From an uncultured Bacilli bacterium (GTDB lineage Bacteria; Bacillota_I; Bacilli_A; RF39; UBA660): a DNA stretch of 37,630 nt. A program made the translations under genes and the position numbers. Numbering within the stretch: position 1 is the first letter of the stretch; the number at the start of each line of letters is the position of its first letter. A model generated the notes under the pieces. The model saw nothing but the letters and a program-made list of their open reading frames with translations, made no database searches and was not told where the DNA came from. Of this stretch, positions 7,890 through 30,197 are shown piece after piece. Where the stretch lies: positions 1 through 37,630 of the forward strand of contig CANRAL010000010.1 in NCBI GenBank assembly GCA_947628585.1. Direction: 5' to 3'.

Positions 7890-8321
7890 GTGGTTTTTAT
7901 GAATTGGGTATTTTGGTTAAGTATTATTGTTCTTTTAACTTTTATTGAAATTAGTACTACTAATTTAGTTTCTATTTGGTTTATTGCTAGTGGAATAGTA
8001 AGTTTAATATTTTCTTTAGTTTATGATAATTTATATTGGGAAATTGCTTTATTTGTTATTCTAGGAGTTATTTTATTAATATTGACCCGGCCTTTAATTA
8101 ACAAATATTTTAAAAAAGAAAGTGTTAAAACTAATTTAGATAGAGTTGTGGGAATGACGGGAATATGTACTGAAGAAATAAAGAAAAATACTATAGGTGA
8201 AGTTAAAGTTGATGGTAAAAAATGGAGTGCTTATAGTAATGAGTTAATTAAAGTTGATGATGAAGTCTACATTGAAAAAATAGATGGAGTTAAATTAAAA
8301 GTTAGAAAGGAGGGAAAATAA
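7890..8321 (+). CDS. NfeD-like membrane protein
   Basis: 143 residues: two membrane spans near the N-terminus (about 5-26 and 30-65 in a helical hairpin) followed by a soluble OB-fold-like domain (RVVGMTGICTEEIKKNTIGEVKVDGKKWSAYS...) typical of short NfeD proteins. These pair with SPFH/stomatin proteins to organise membrane microdomains or quality control. GTG 7890 is 4 nt after AAGGA; ATG 7899 is the alternative. It overlaps the stomatin gene by TAATG. Confidence 0.88.
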   Translation: MVFMNWVFWLSIIVLLTFIEISTTNLVSIWFIASGIVSLIFSLVYDNLYWEIALFVILGVILLILTRPLINKYFKKESVKTNLDRVVGMTGICTEEIKKNTIGEVKVDGKKWSAYSNELIKVDDEVYIEKIDGVKLKVRKEGK

Positions 8322-9214
8322 TGGAAATATTTTTAATTATTTTAGTTATTGTTTTATTATTAATAATACCTAATATTAAAATTGTACCTCAAGCAAAAAG
8401 TTATGTTATTGAACGACTTGGTTCTTATTATACAACTTGGCAAAATGGGTTACATTTTAAACTTCCTTTTATAGATGCTATTTCTAATAAAGTTACCTTA
8501 AAGGAAGTTGTTAAAGATTTTGCTCCCCAACCAGTTATAACTAAGGATAATGTTACAATGCAAATTGATACGGTTGTTTATTATTCAATAACTGATCCTA
8601 AATTATATACATATGGTATTGAATTTCCAGTTAGTGCTATTGAAAATTTAACGGCTACAACTTTAAGAAATTTAATTGGGGATTTAGAATTAGATCAAAC
8701 TTTAACTAGTCGGGATATAATTAATACTAAAATGCGAGCTATCTTAGATGAAGCAACGGACCCTTGGGGTATTAAAGTAAATCGGGTAGAAGTTAAAAAT
8801 ATTATTCCTCCTCGGGATATTCAAGAAGCTATGGAAAAACAAATGCGAGCTGAAAGAGAAAGAAGAGAAAAAATTCTTCAAGCCGAAGGGGAAAAGAAAA
8901 GTAGTATTTTAATAGCTGAAGGGGAAAAAGAAAGTGCTATTTTAAGAGCTGAAGCTGAAAAGGAAAGTAATATTCGCATTGCCGAAGGTCAAGCCGAAGC
9001 TTTATTAAAAATTAAACAAGCGGAAGCTGATGGTATAAAACTTCTTAAAGAAGCTAAAGCTGATGAATCAGTATTAAAACTTAAAAGTTATGAAACTTTA
9101 GCAAGTATTGCTGATGGTAAAGCAACTAAAATTATTGTTCCCGCGGATTTACAAAATATTGTTACGTTTGGAACAGTATTAAAAGAAACAATGCAAAATA
9201 AAGAAGAAAAATGA
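8321..9214 (+). CDS. SPFH/stomatin-family membrane protein
   Basis: 297 residues. One N-terminal membrane anchor (3-20) leads into a prohibitin/band-7 domain (IVPQAKSYVIERLGSY...LHFKLPFID...) and then a long Ala/Glu/Lys coiled coil (about 165-250, repeated AEGEKES blocks) ending in a VPADLQNIVTFGT tail typical of QmcA/stomatin. Forms large oligomeric rings at the membrane. It is immediately downstream of NfeD, a classic pairing. Confidence 0.93.
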   Translation: MEIFLIILVIVLLLIIPNIKIVPQAKSYVIERLGSYYTTWQNGLHFKLPFIDAISNKVTLKEVVKDFAPQPVITKDNVTMQIDTVVYYSITDPKLYTYGIEFPVSAIENLTATTLRNLIGDLELDQTLTSRDIINTKMRAILDEATDPWGIKVNRVEVKNIIPPRDIQEAMEKQMRAERERREKILQAEGEKKSSILIAEGEKESAILRAEAEKESNIRIAEGQAEALLKIKQAEADGIKLLKEAKADESVLKLKSYETLASIADGKATKIIVPADLQNIVTFGTVLKETMQNKEEK

Positions 9215-25838: not shown

Positions 25839-28403
25839 ATGAAGAAGTTAATTTTAGTAGATGGTAACAATTTAATGTTTCGTTCGTATTATGCTACTGC
25901 TTATAGTGGTAATATGATGACTAATTCTAAAGGTTTACCAACTAATGCTTTATATGGTTTTGTTTCTATGATTAATAAAATAATTATTGAAGAAAAACCT
26001 GTTTATATGGCTGTAGCTTTTGATATTGGTCAAAATTTTCGAAAAAAAGAATATGATTTTTATAAAGAAGGAAGAGTAGCAACTCCCGAAGAGTTAAAAA
26101 TTCAAATGCCTATTGCTCGTGATATTTTAGATGCAATGAATATAAAACATTTGGAACTTGCTCCTTATGAAGCTGATGATATAATTGGAACAATTGTAAA
26201 AATGACCGAGAGTGATCCCGAATTTTCATCGACAATTGTTTCAAGTGATAAAGATTTATTACAATTAATTAGTGAAGAAACGGAAGTAAAATTACTTAAA
26301 CAAACTGGTTTTATTCGTTATACTAAAGATAAATTTATTGAGGATTATGGAATTATGCCTATTAAAATGATAGATTTAAAAGCTTTAATGGGTGATGCTT
26401 CCGATAATATTCCCGGAGTAAAAGGAATAGGTGAAAAAACTGCTTTAAAACTTTTACAAGAATATGAATCTTTAGAAAATCTTTATAATAATATTGATGA
26501 AATAAAAGGTAAAACTCAAGAAAAATTAATAGAGGATAAAGACAATGCTTTTATGAGTAAAAAAATAGCTACAATTTATCGTGATGTACCTTTAAATATT
26601 AATTTAGAAGATTTAAAAATTGGCAAAATTAAACCAAAATTAACCGAATTATTTAAAGAATTAGAATTTTTCTCTTTATTAAAAACAATGATGGTACCAA
26701 TTAAAGATGATAGTGAAAGTTTAGATGTTGAAGAAATAACTGATTTAACAAAATTAGATTCTTTAGAAAATGATATTGCTATTTATTTAGAACTTGATAA
26801 CAATAACTATCATATAGCTAATATTATGGCATTAACAGTTAAAGATGCTCATCATATTTTTTATGTAGATAAAGATTTAGTAATTCCTACTTTAAATAAA
26901 ATAAAAGATAAAAATATTACAACTTACGATGCTAAAAAAATTATATGTAAAACTAAAATAAAAATTAATTGTGTTTGCGATATAATGATTGCCTCTTATC
27001 TATGTAATTATAATTTTAAAGAAGATATAGCTTTCTTAATGCAACAATTTAATGAAAAAATAGATTTCTATGATACTTTTTTAAAAGATCCTAAAATGAC
27101 TGAAAAAATAAAAGAATTTTTAGGAAAAAAAGTTAATTTTTTATATAATTTTAAAGATGAAATGTTAAAAAGATTAAAAGAAAATAATTACTTAGATTTA
27201 TTTAATAATATTGAAATGCCTTTATTATATGTTCTAGCCGATATGGAAATAACTGGTATTAAATGTGAAAAAGATGTTTTAGAACAAATGAAAACTTTAA
27301 TAAAAGAAAAAATAACTAATATTGAAAAAGAAATTTATTTAGACGCGGGAATGGAATTTAATATTGGTTCTCCAAAACAATTGGGAGAAGTTTTATTTGA
27401 TAAAATGCAATTAGGAGTAGGAAAAAAGAATAAAACGGGTTATAAAACCGATGTTAAAGTTTTGGAAAAATTAATGGGGAAACATCCTATTATTGAAAAG
27501 ATATTAGAATATCGTAATTTAACTAAAATTTATAATACTTATTTGGAAGGATTAGAAAATTTTATATTAGAAGATGGAAAAATTCATACCATTTATAAAC
27601 AAACTTTAACTCGTACGGGTAGACTTTCTTCTATAGAACCTAATTTACAAAATATTCCTGTTCGCGAAGAATTAGGTCGGAATATTCGTAAAGCTTTTGT
27701 TCCTAGTAATGATTTACTTTTATCCGCGGATTATTCCCAAATTGAATTGCGAATTTTAGCTCATATTTCTAATTGTCCTACTTTAATAGAAGCTTTTAAA
27801 AATGATGAAGATATTCATAGTAAAGTAGCTAGTGATATTTATGAAGTACCAATAGATGCTGTTACAAAGAAAATGCGGAGAACGGCAAAAGCTGTAATTT
27901 TTGGAATTGTTTATGGTATAAGTGGTTTTGGCTTAGGAGAAAATTTAAATATATCGCGAAAAGAAGCCGATGACTTTATTAATAAATATTATGAGTTATA
28001 TCCTGAAGTAAAAAATTATATGGATGAAATAATTTCTAAAACTCATTTTTTAGGATATGTAACTACTTTATTTAATCGTAAAAGAGTAATTGATGAAATT
28101 AATAATACTAATTATATGATAAGACAAATGGGAGAAAGAATGGCTTTAAATACTCCGATTCAAGGTACAAGCGCGGATATAATGAAGTTAGCTATGATTA
28201 ATGTTTATAAACGTTTTCAAGAAGAGAAAATCGAAAGTAAAATATTATTACAAGTTCATGATGAAATAATTATTGACTGTAAAAATACGGAACTAGATAA
28301 AATTAAAAAAATTGTTAAAGAAGAAATGGAAAATGTTTTTCCTTTAAGTGTTCCTTTAAAAATAGAAATTAATACTGGTGTTAACTGGTATGATGCAAAA
28401 TAA
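25839..28403 (+). CDS. polA: DNA polymerase I
   Basis: 854 residues. The 5'-nuclease domain (1-~290) keeps its acidic motifs (LVDGNNLMFRSYYA, YEADDIIGT, VSSDKDLLQL, GDASDNIPGVKGIGEKTA). The middle 3'-5' exonuclease region (~300-470) has lost its DxE motif, as in Bacillus PolA, so proofreading is not expected. The polymerase domain has motif A SADYSQIELRILAH (~630), O-helix RRTAKAVIFGIVYGISGFG (~679) with the finger Phe, and motif C QVHDEI (~805). In the O-helix the common Asn of AKAVNFG is Ile. The polA...mutM order matches Bacillus, interrupted here by the repeat RNA unit and one gene. Confidence 0.96.
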   Translation: MKKLILVDGNNLMFRSYYATAYSGNMMTNSKGLPTNALYGFVSMINKIIIEEKPVYMAVAFDIGQNFRKKEYDFYKEGRVATPEELKIQMPIARDILDAMNIKHLELAPYEADDIIGTIVKMTESDPEFSSTIVSSDKDLLQLISEETEVKLLKQTGFIRYTKDKFIEDYGIMPIKMIDLKALMGDASDNIPGVKGIGEKTALKLLQEYESLENLYNNIDEIKGKTQEKLIEDKDNAFMSKKIATIYRDVPLNINLEDLKIGKIKPKLTELFKELEFFSLLKTMMVPIKDDSESLDVEEITDLTKLDSLENDIAIYLELDNNNYHIANIMALTVKDAHHIFYVDKDLVIPTLNKIKDKNITTYDAKKIICKTKIKINCVCDIMIASYLCNYNFKEDIAFLMQQFNEKIDFYDTFLKDPKMTEKIKEFLGKKVNFLYNFKDEMLKRLKENNYLDLFNNIEMPLLYVLADMEITGIKCEKDVLEQMKTLIKEKITNIEKEIYLDAGMEFNIGSPKQLGEVLFDKMQLGVGKKNKTGYKTDVKVLEKLMGKHPIIEKILEYRNLTKIYNTYLEGLENFILEDGKIHTIYKQTLTRTGRLSSIEPNLQNIPVREELGRNIRKAFVPSNDLLLSADYSQIELRILAHISNCPTLIEAFKNDEDIHSKVASDIYEVPIDAVTKKMRRTAKAVIFGIVYGISGFGLGENLNISRKEADDFINKYYELYPEVKNYMDEIISKTHFLGYVTTLFNRKRVIDEINNTNYMIRQMGERMALNTPIQGTSADIMKLAMINVYKRFQEEKIESKILLQVHDEIIIDCKNTELDKIKKIVKEEMENVFPLSVPLKIEINTGVNWYDAK

Positions 28404-28413
28404 AAAAATATTG

Positions 28414-28443
28414 TTGACAAATAGTAAATATTTATAGTATATT
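28414..28443 (+). promoter_or_regulatory. Strong promoter of the tandem-repeat RNA
   Basis: A consensus TTGACA at 28414-28419, an 18-nt spacer and TATATT at 28438-28443. This is the only perfect -35 box I noticed in the window. The predicted start, ~28450, is the first base of a hairpin. Confidence 0.75.
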
Positions 28444-28466
28444 TAAATTGCATAAGAAATTATGCT

Positions 28467-28651
28467 AAAAAGCGGTGTACCCAGCCATTAAATTGGGAGT
28501 TGAAAAAGCGGTGTATCCGGCCATTAAACTGGAAGTTGAAAAAGCGGTGTACCCGGCCATTAAACTGGGAACTAAAAAAGCGGTGAATCCAGCCATTAAA
28601 TGGGAAACGAAAAAAGCGGTGTATCCAGCCATTAAGTGGAAACGAAAAAAG
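28467..28651 (+). repeat. Tandem 36-bp repeat array, five units
   Basis: GCGGTG begins at 28472, 28508, 28544, 28580 and 28616, an exact 36-bp period, with a degenerate sixth start near 28651. Each unit contains AAAAAGCGGTG, a central CC(A/G)GCCATTAA and a right arm TGG. Units are directly contiguous, without spacers. The array is much richer in G and C than the flanks. Confidence 0.9.
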
Positions 28652-28652
28652 C

Positions 28653-28687
28653 AGGTTAAATTTTGATTCTAACCTTTTGTTTTATTT
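28653..28687 (+). terminator. Intrinsic terminator of the repeat RNA
   Basis: A perfect 6-bp stem AGGTTA/TAACCT with an 11-nt loop, followed by TTTTGTTTTATTT. The tail overlaps the weak -35 region of the next gene. Confidence 0.6.
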
Positions 28688-28723
28688 AAAATAATTGTAT
28701 AATTAAATTAATAGGTGATATAA

Positions 28724-29359
28724 ATGTTTAAAAGAAAACCGATAATTGGAATTATTCCAGGAATGCTTGCTAAAGATGTTGAAGAATATAATTGGGCTGT
28801 TCAAAATAATAAACCGTTAGGAGTTCCTTATTTTGAAGATATGGAAATTAATAATGTTATAAAAGCTGGAGGTATTCCTATTGGCATCTTAAGTAATGAT
28901 ATTACATATTATAAAGATGTATGTGATGGTTATTTAATAACATATGAGTATTTATATTATCCTTCTCATAAAGAACTAATAAGAACTGCTTTAAAAAATA
29001 GCAAACCTATACTTGGAATTAATATGGGAACAATAGGGATTATTAAGGCCTTAAATATAGATAATAATTTTACAATAATTGATAGATCTAGCATAAATTT
29101 ACCGACATCCTTTAATATTAAATTAGAAAAAGATACAATTTTAGCAAATATTTATAAAACTGATAATATTGAAGTGTGTAGTGCTTATTCTTTAAAATTA
29201 AAAAAAGAAGTGAAAGAAATAAAATTAAATGGAGTTAATGCTGAGTTGGTAAATGCCCTAGAGTATAATAAAAATATATTAGGAACACTATATCATTTTA
29301 AAAATATTAATGATATTTCCTTACATAAGTGGCTAATAAGTAAGGCAAAAAATAGTTAA
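28724..29359 (+). CDS. Degenerate class-I glutamine amidotransferase-like (peptidase C26-like) protein
   Basis: 211 residues. The fold signature of gamma-glutamyl-GABA hydrolases is recognisable (KPIIGIIPG at the N-terminus, AGGIPIGIL, CDGYLIT, KPILGINMG), but the catalytic elbow, normally GICRG, reads GINMG, so the nucleophile Cys is Asn100. The PGG loop and the HHQ histidine are also missing, and the terminal QFHPE-like site reads LYHFKN. It is therefore probably inactive as a glutaminase; it may bind a ligand or act as a scaffold. RBS AGGTGAT; TATAAT lies ~25 nt upstream. The assignment rests on pattern resemblance. Confidence 0.7.
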   Translation: MFKRKPIIGIIPGMLAKDVEEYNWAVQNNKPLGVPYFEDMEINNVIKAGGIPIGILSNDITYYKDVCDGYLITYEYLYYPSHKELIRTALKNSKPILGINMGTIGIIKALNIDNNFTIIDRSSINLPTSFNIKLEKDTILANIYKTDNIEVCSAYSLKLKKEVKEIKLNGVNAELVNALEYNKNILGTLYHFKNINDISLHKWLISKAKNS

Positions 29360-29378
29360 GTAAAGGATAGTGAAGATT

Positions 29379-30197
29379 ATGCCAGAAATCGCTGAAGTGG
29401 AAACTGTAAAAAACACTTTAAAAAAACAAATTTTAAATAAAAGGATAAAAGATGTTAAAGTATATTATGAAAAAATGATTGAAAGTAATATTAATACTTT
29501 TAAAAGGGATTTAATAGGGGATGAATTTATTGATATTAAAAGAAGAGGAAAATGGTTAATTTTTGAACTTCATAATCATTATTTATTAAGTCATTTACGT
29601 ATGGAAGGTAAGTTTTTTCTAAAAAATACAAATGAGGAATTAGCTAAACATGAACATGTAGTTATAACATTTGAAGATAATTTAGATTTAAGATATCATG
29701 ATACTAGAAAATTTGGTCGAATGAATTTAATTTCAAAAGAAGAGTTAGAAAATACCGAATGTATAAAAAAACAAGGTTTAGAACCTGGAGATAAAGCTTT
29801 AACAGCATCATATTTGCAAAAAAAATTAAAAAATAAAAGTTTACCAATTAAAAGTGTATTATTAGATCAAAGTATTATAAGTGGTCTAGGAAATATATAT
29901 GCTAATGAAGTATTATTTTATGCTTTAATTAATCCTTTAAAAAAAGCATCTTCATTAACTTTAGAAGAATGTAATAGAATTGTTGAAGGAGCTAATGTAA
30001 TAATCAAAGAAGCAATTAAAATGGGTGGTACAACTATTAAAAGTTATACTTCTTCTTTAGGGGTTACTGGGCGATTTCAAACTAAATTAAAAGTCCATAA
30101 AAAAGAAGGACAATTATGTCCTCATTGTAATAATAAAATTGTTAAGATTAAAGTAGGAGGGCGTAGTACCTATTATTGTCCTAATTGTCAAAAATAA
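29379..30197 (+). CDS. mutM: MutM/Fpg, formamidopyrimidine-DNA glycosylase
   Basis: Bifunctional glycosylase/AP lyase that removes 8-oxoguanine. ATG 29379 is chosen because the enzyme needs Pro2 and Glu3 (MPEIAEVETV); an upstream GTG at 29370 would bury them. Lys58 is in RRGKWLIF, the H2TH region is LPIKSVLLDQSIISGLGNIYANE, and the C-terminal zinc finger is LCPHCNNKI...RSTYYCPNC. 272 residues, normal length. The gene ends at the first base of the opposing transglutaminase-like gene. Confidence 0.95.
   Translation: MPEIAEVETVKNTLKKQILNKRIKDVKVYYEKMIESNINTFKRDLIGDEFIDIKRRGKWLIFELHNHYLLSHLRMEGKFFLKNTNEELAKHEHVVITFEDNLDLRYHDTRKFGRMNLISKEELENTECIKKQGLEPGDKALTASYLQKKLKNKSLPIKSVLLDQSIISGLGNIYANEVLFYALINPLKKASSLTLEECNRIVEGANVIIKEAIKMGGTTIKSYTSSLGVTGRFQTKLKVHKKEGQLCPHCNNKIVKIKVGGRSTYYCPNCQK

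Follow-up and report, generated by a model that had tools for sequence, protein, structure and literature searches.

Features of the region downstream of polA

The analysed window is a stretch of 37,630 nucleotides, in which the gap following polA (25839-28403, + strand; PF00476 and others) contains, on the + strand, a promoter, a GAAA-capped hairpin, five units, each about 36 nt long, and a weak terminator. The promoter (28414-28443, TTGACA-18-TATATT) matches the consensus at 11 of 12 positions and is followed, at the expected start, by a 6-bp leader hairpin (28450-28465, GCATAA-GAAA-TTATGC), which gave -4.4 kcal/mol and a z of -4.6 when scored alone, while mononucleotide shuffles of a 40-nt segment around it gave no information. 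Both elements had been postulated in the original prediction and were recovered as described. A leader hairpin is readable between the promoter and the first unit in several related arrays as well, with changed arms (GCATAA/TTATGC, GCATATA/TATATGC and ACATAAC/GTTATGT).

The five units, also predicted, start (A followed by GCGG) at 28471, 28507, 28543, 28579 and 28615, that is, exactly 36 nt apart. They occupy 28471-28506 (unit 1, 67.2 bits), 28507-28542 (unit 2), 28543-28578 (unit 3, 69.8 bits), 28579-28614 (unit 4, 66.8 bits) and 28615-28649 (unit 5, 63.1 bits) of the + strand, and the fifth is 35 nt long. Tandem Repeats Finder ranked this array (28467-28635, period 36, score 231) at the top of the window; the second-best one, a 33-nt repeat of 2.8 copies at 8881-8974, lies in the ORF 8321-9214. 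The intrinsic terminator was only partly as anticipated: a 6-bp stem with an 11-nt loop is present at 28653-28678 (+), but it is weak (-3.8 kcal/mol, z about -1, compared with -10.9 kcal/mol for its counterpart in the congeneric genome G023) owing to a one-base change in the 5′ arm, and it is absent from the list of a simple terminator scan. The layout up to the next gene comprises one promoter and one weak terminator.

Each repeat unit is predicted to form an H-type pseudoknot

The original prediction assigned a simple hairpin around GCCATTAA to each unit, thereby missing a second pairing. The units follow the plan GGU..CCCA.GCC..UGGG, where the CCNN/NNGG pairing (S2) interlocks with that of the loop GCC to the upstream GGU (S1), which predicts an H-type pseudoknot. 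In unit 1, S1 joins 28474-28476 with 28484-28486 and S2 joins 28480-28483 with 28494-28497. The outer S2 pair is C-G, U-A and C-G in units 1-3, exactly as described before. The predicted irregularities of the last two units were corrected in part, as a one-base shift restores four pairs in unit 4, and all four pairs are complete in unit 5, whose loop is one base shorter, so the pseudoknot can be formed by all five units. The known fold of ToxI, the antitoxin RNA of type III toxin-antitoxin systems, is a pseudoknot of the same kind (PMC5086642, PMC8860590).

Covariation was evaluated in two sets of units. In the gap-free set of 29 units, S1 was invariant, while the S2 pair 10-27 was C-G in 18 and U-A in 11 units and the pair 12-25 was C-G in 25 and U-A in four, with no mispair in either. 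A covariance model of the ToxI unit (R1) gathered 118 units, 109 of them distinct, and here S1 also varied and compensated (U-A/A-U/C-G, G-C/A-U and U-G/U-A/C-G at its three pairs). The outer S2 pair occurred in all four Watson-Crick types (U-A 59, C-G 37, G-C 9, A-U 1). Over the distinct units, 92.9% of the cells could pair, compared with 30-52% in slid registers, and both-sided changes were found in 67 cells against 20.3 in shuffles, distributed over five pairs. Since R1 contains only S2, the S2 counts on the R1-made alignment are biased toward structure, and the covariation of S1 owes nothing to the model. When the whole 251-nt RNA was folded with nested pairs only, it was no more stable than its shuffles (z +0.77) and neither strand gave a signal, because the pseudoknot is invisible to nested folding. 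Rfam searches at the gathering threshold and at E values up to 5 gave chance matches only and no family. Across the relatives the changes follow base pairing and not codons, which upholds the earlier view that the RNA structure, rather than a peptide, is what is kept.

Homologous arrays precede toxN in related genomes

The original prediction had proposed searching related genomes for the unit and examining covariation and copy number; this search returned homologous arrays, usually of three units, in which both helices covary. Counting the own genome, nine of 30 congeneric genomes contain the pattern GCGGTGNANCCNGCCATTAA, which the reversed control lacks. As in the window, G018, G019, G020, G024 and G027 have the array immediately 3′ of polA, and there a terminator and then a protein gene come after it. 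The encoded protein matches PF13958 (ToxN_toxin) at 1e-47 to 1e-50, the ToxN structures 4ATO, 2XD0 and 7D8O, and AbiQ in PADLOC. The units of the relatives are 34-37 nt long, a range that includes those of the window, and over its first 30 nt unit 3 matches, without a single difference, the unit that closes the toxN-bearing arrays of G018, G019, G020 and G023. Moreover, the AAAAA linkers between the window units resemble, at the sequence level, the A-tracts in which ToxI precursors are cleaved.

Considering the tandem arrangement, the homologous arrays before toxN at the same locus and the pseudoknot that covariation in both helices predicts for each unit, we concluded that the window array is very probably a ToxI-type antitoxin RNA of the ToxIN family (type III) without its toxin gene; this high confidence concerns its identity and not any present-day benefit. 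Neutralization of ToxN and processing by it are predicted for the array. In a complete ToxIN system toxN directly follows the array and its terminator, whereas here the next gene is C26-like. The locus is therefore classified as a ToxI antitoxin locus and not as a ToxIN system, because the defining toxin gene is absent. Accordingly, the "self-contained" transcription unit of the original prediction is by origin one half of a toxin-antitoxin locus.

Synteny of the polA-mutM interval and loss of toxN

Type III modules of the genus are inserted on the 3′ side of polA, as seen from the synteny of G018, G019, G020, G023, G024, G026 and G027; this side is a hotspot for such systems. On the right, the window contains a gene of the C26-peptidase/glutamine-amidotransferase type (28724-29359, +; PF07722, 2.2e-5), which follows toxN in G023, and mutM (Fpg; 29370-30197, +), the conserved right flank of the locus. 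The gene order is polA - CptIN - toxI_a toxN_a - toxI_b toxN_b - C26 - mutM in G023 and polA - toxI_a toxN_a - one toxI_b unit - mutM in G019. The window terminator aligns with the toxI_a terminator of G023, and the segment 28673-28723 aligns with the flank preceding mutM in G019 and the C26-like gene in G023; therefore, a deletion between these points most probably removed toxN, and 28673-28723 is its scar. Promoter and leader align closely between the window and the toxN-bearing array of G023, although the polA genes of these two genomes differ at 50% of their fourfold sites.

The toxin was not found elsewhere in the own genome either. PF13958 had no match in this 95%-complete assembly, while the same search was positive in 17 of 30 congeneric genomes; a congeneric ToxN protein found nothing at E values up to 10; and R1 detected no second ToxI array.

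Further type III loci were noticed in these genomes. In G023 (contig C14, L083:4655-7690), the three tandem modules between polA and the C26 gene are one CptIN and two ToxIN systems of different repeat types. Behind toxN, both G018 (L078:6020-6160), whose contig ends soon after, and G019 (L079:3840-3990) have a second ToxI array, different in type and with no toxN of its own seen; in G019 it is a single unit with a compensated C-G to U-A change in S2 relative to G018. The own genome has two CptN loci (G000:C26:11460-11921 and G000:C12:16109-16551; L139, L140, L141), one intact-looking with a two-unit array, and the other interrupted by stops and preceded by an array of its own.

Orphan ToxI arrays in the family

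A set of 243 genomes of the family was searched both for arrays, with R1, and for the toxin. Arrays were reported in 48 genomes, 46 of which remained after rejecting the matches of G136 and G216, which look like coding sequence. At least 14 of the 46 array-bearing genomes (G000, G033, G036, G041, G061, G075, G088, G100, G119, G131, G139, G164, G191 and G208) have an array that lacks a full ToxN next to it, a minimum since adjacency was checked directly at the fetched loci only; the array at the contig end of G033:C26 was not counted as orphan. Thus, about three in ten array-bearing genomes among those searched hold at least one toxin-less array. In 11 of the 14, PF13958 had no match at E 0.001, G191 among them keeping only a short toxN stump; G041, G061 and G208 have toxN elsewhere in the genome, separate and with its own array. 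The genes following orphan arrays are unrelated to one another, which is evidence against a new partner protein.

The states before and after toxin loss can be compared a second time, in G270 (toxN present) and its congener G041 (orphan), where the flanks are 77-85% identical and the locus is orthologous. About 490 nt of toxN in G270 correspond to about 40 nt in G041, so almost the whole gene was lost, and the three units are about 94% identical without any change in the core pairs. Other loci represent further stages of toxin decay. The toxN of G020 at the polA site is frameshifted and its array is intact; C-terminal toxN stumps follow intact arrays in L111, L129 and G191; toxN is internally deleted in L122; and single-unit remnants were found in L100, G088, G119 and G131. 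Several other orphans are three-unit arrays with clear terminator-like inverted repeats. The core pairs are intact in 143 of 144 cases in the detected orphan arrays and in 526 of 534 in the toxN-linked ones, figures to be read with the preference of R1, the model that found the arrays, for intact units.

At about 3734-4238 of L097 (G020), toxN is split into two frames by an apparent short tandem duplication. The unit pattern also had lone matches in L098, L112, L125, L130, L134 (cellular) and L138 (viral), which did not belong to arrays and were put down to chance. In viral contigs, the pattern used found no ToxI array and one toxN query found no ToxN relative.

Origin and possible role of the orphan array

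In intact systems, ToxN cleavage within the A-tracts of the precursor releases pseudoknots that trap the toxin, the two assembling as a closed inactive ring (PMC8860590, PMC5086642). By analogy, the window promoter would direct the synthesis of a precursor in which A-tracts lie between the five pseudoknots and which ends at the terminator, while the leader hairpin is possibly a 5′ stabilizer of this antitoxin precursor. With one end at the toxI terminator and the other before the next gene, the deletion would have taken toxN and, judging from the relatives, probably also a second module, leaving the antitoxin alone. Such one-sided remains would arise because a cell can lose toxN as long as it has toxI, but it cannot lose toxI first. 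Judged by its sequence, the remaining array should still be a competent ToxN decoy, and it is most likely a fairly recent leftover still making antitoxin. Any benefit would come from neutralizing ToxN arriving with plasmids, phages or transformation.

Several explanations of the array can be considered. The original prediction offered a repeat-peptide gene with 12-residue units, and one frame is indeed open through the array; however, it has no ribosome binding site, as already stated there, and no ATG either, the 34-, 35- and 37-nt units of the relatives break the frame, the substitutions track pairing instead of codons, and Pfam found nothing in the peptide translations, making a coding function extremely improbable. 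The proposed protein sponge came close, as the homologous arrays are ToxI, that is, ToxN-binding RNAs. An unrelated small-RNA sponge or a riboregulator of the downstream gene could account for the own promoter and terminator, but it is very unlikely when identical units stand before toxN in many genomes and the genes after orphan arrays share nothing. It is also improbable, though somewhat less so, that the array is the partner of a ToxN whose gene falls in the few percent missing from the own assembly: G041, G061 and G208 exemplify such a coexistence, but the toxin and array searches of the own genome were negative.

The two remaining readings concern why the array persists. That it is a neutral relic, in which toxN was freely lost first and the toxI stumps stay and will decay, is somewhat the more probable and is supported by the series running from the frameshift through toxN stumps to lone units, as well as by the weak terminator of the window; the intact promoter, leader and five units of the window and the three-unit orphans with clear terminator-like repeats speak against it. 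Selection for a trans-acting antidote, directed against addiction or against mobile ToxN abortive-infection modules, is a tenable but less probable reading. It would fit the structural integrity of the orphan units, the five units of the window compared with mostly three in toxN-linked arrays, the recurrence of orphans in many species, and the precedents of phage pseudo-ToxI (PMC3475682) and CcdA anti-addiction (PMC7354431). The preference of R1 for intact units, the degraded window terminator, the reduction of several other orphans to one unit, and the failure of the single toxN query to find a relative in viral contigs weaken it. The two readings do not exclude each other, and a recent relic that is still competent is slightly favoured here over an antidote maintained by selection. 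It is a rather speculative extension that solitary chromosomal ToxI arrays constitute a widespread antitoxin-only class in the family, selected as RNA immunity against mobile ToxN and dose-tuned by repeat number. Whether RNA antitoxins are kept against incoming ToxN or are left behind on the only safe exit from toxin addiction is now a testable question.

Comparison with known systems

The toxin protein has been the starting point of the published type III surveys (PMC5086642), and because of this toxin-less arrays are invisible to them. In the literature searched, which includes few subscription journals, no account of orphan type III antitoxins on chromosomes was found. The window array resembles the ToxIN/AbiQ systems in its tandem units of about 36 nt, promoter, predicted H-type pseudoknots, A-rich linkers and terminator, and in the adjacency of the relatives' arrays to ToxN; the corresponding repeats are 36 nt x 5.5 in ToxI of Pectobacterium atrosepticum, 34 nt x 2.9 in that of B. 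thuringiensis and 35 nt x 2.8 in antiQ. It differs from them in lacking toxN, in its unit number, five against the three usual in the lineage, and in its weakened terminator. CptIN, which occupies the same polA site in G023 and has CptN homologues elsewhere in the own genome, differs in both toxin and repeat family.

Orphan antitoxins are known from type II systems, such as the chromosomal CcdA acting against addiction (PMC7354431), which is similar in the missing toxin and the possible protection in trans, but is a protein and not an RNA. A parallel in RNA is the pseudo-ToxI of phage PhiTE, whose toxin-less repeats suppress ToxN once expanded to 4.5-5.5 units in escape mutants (PMC3475682), so that in the phage they work as decoys and the repeat number matters. 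Those repeats are phage-borne and were selected in the laboratory, whereas the window array is chromosomal and appears to have been left by the deletion of toxN.
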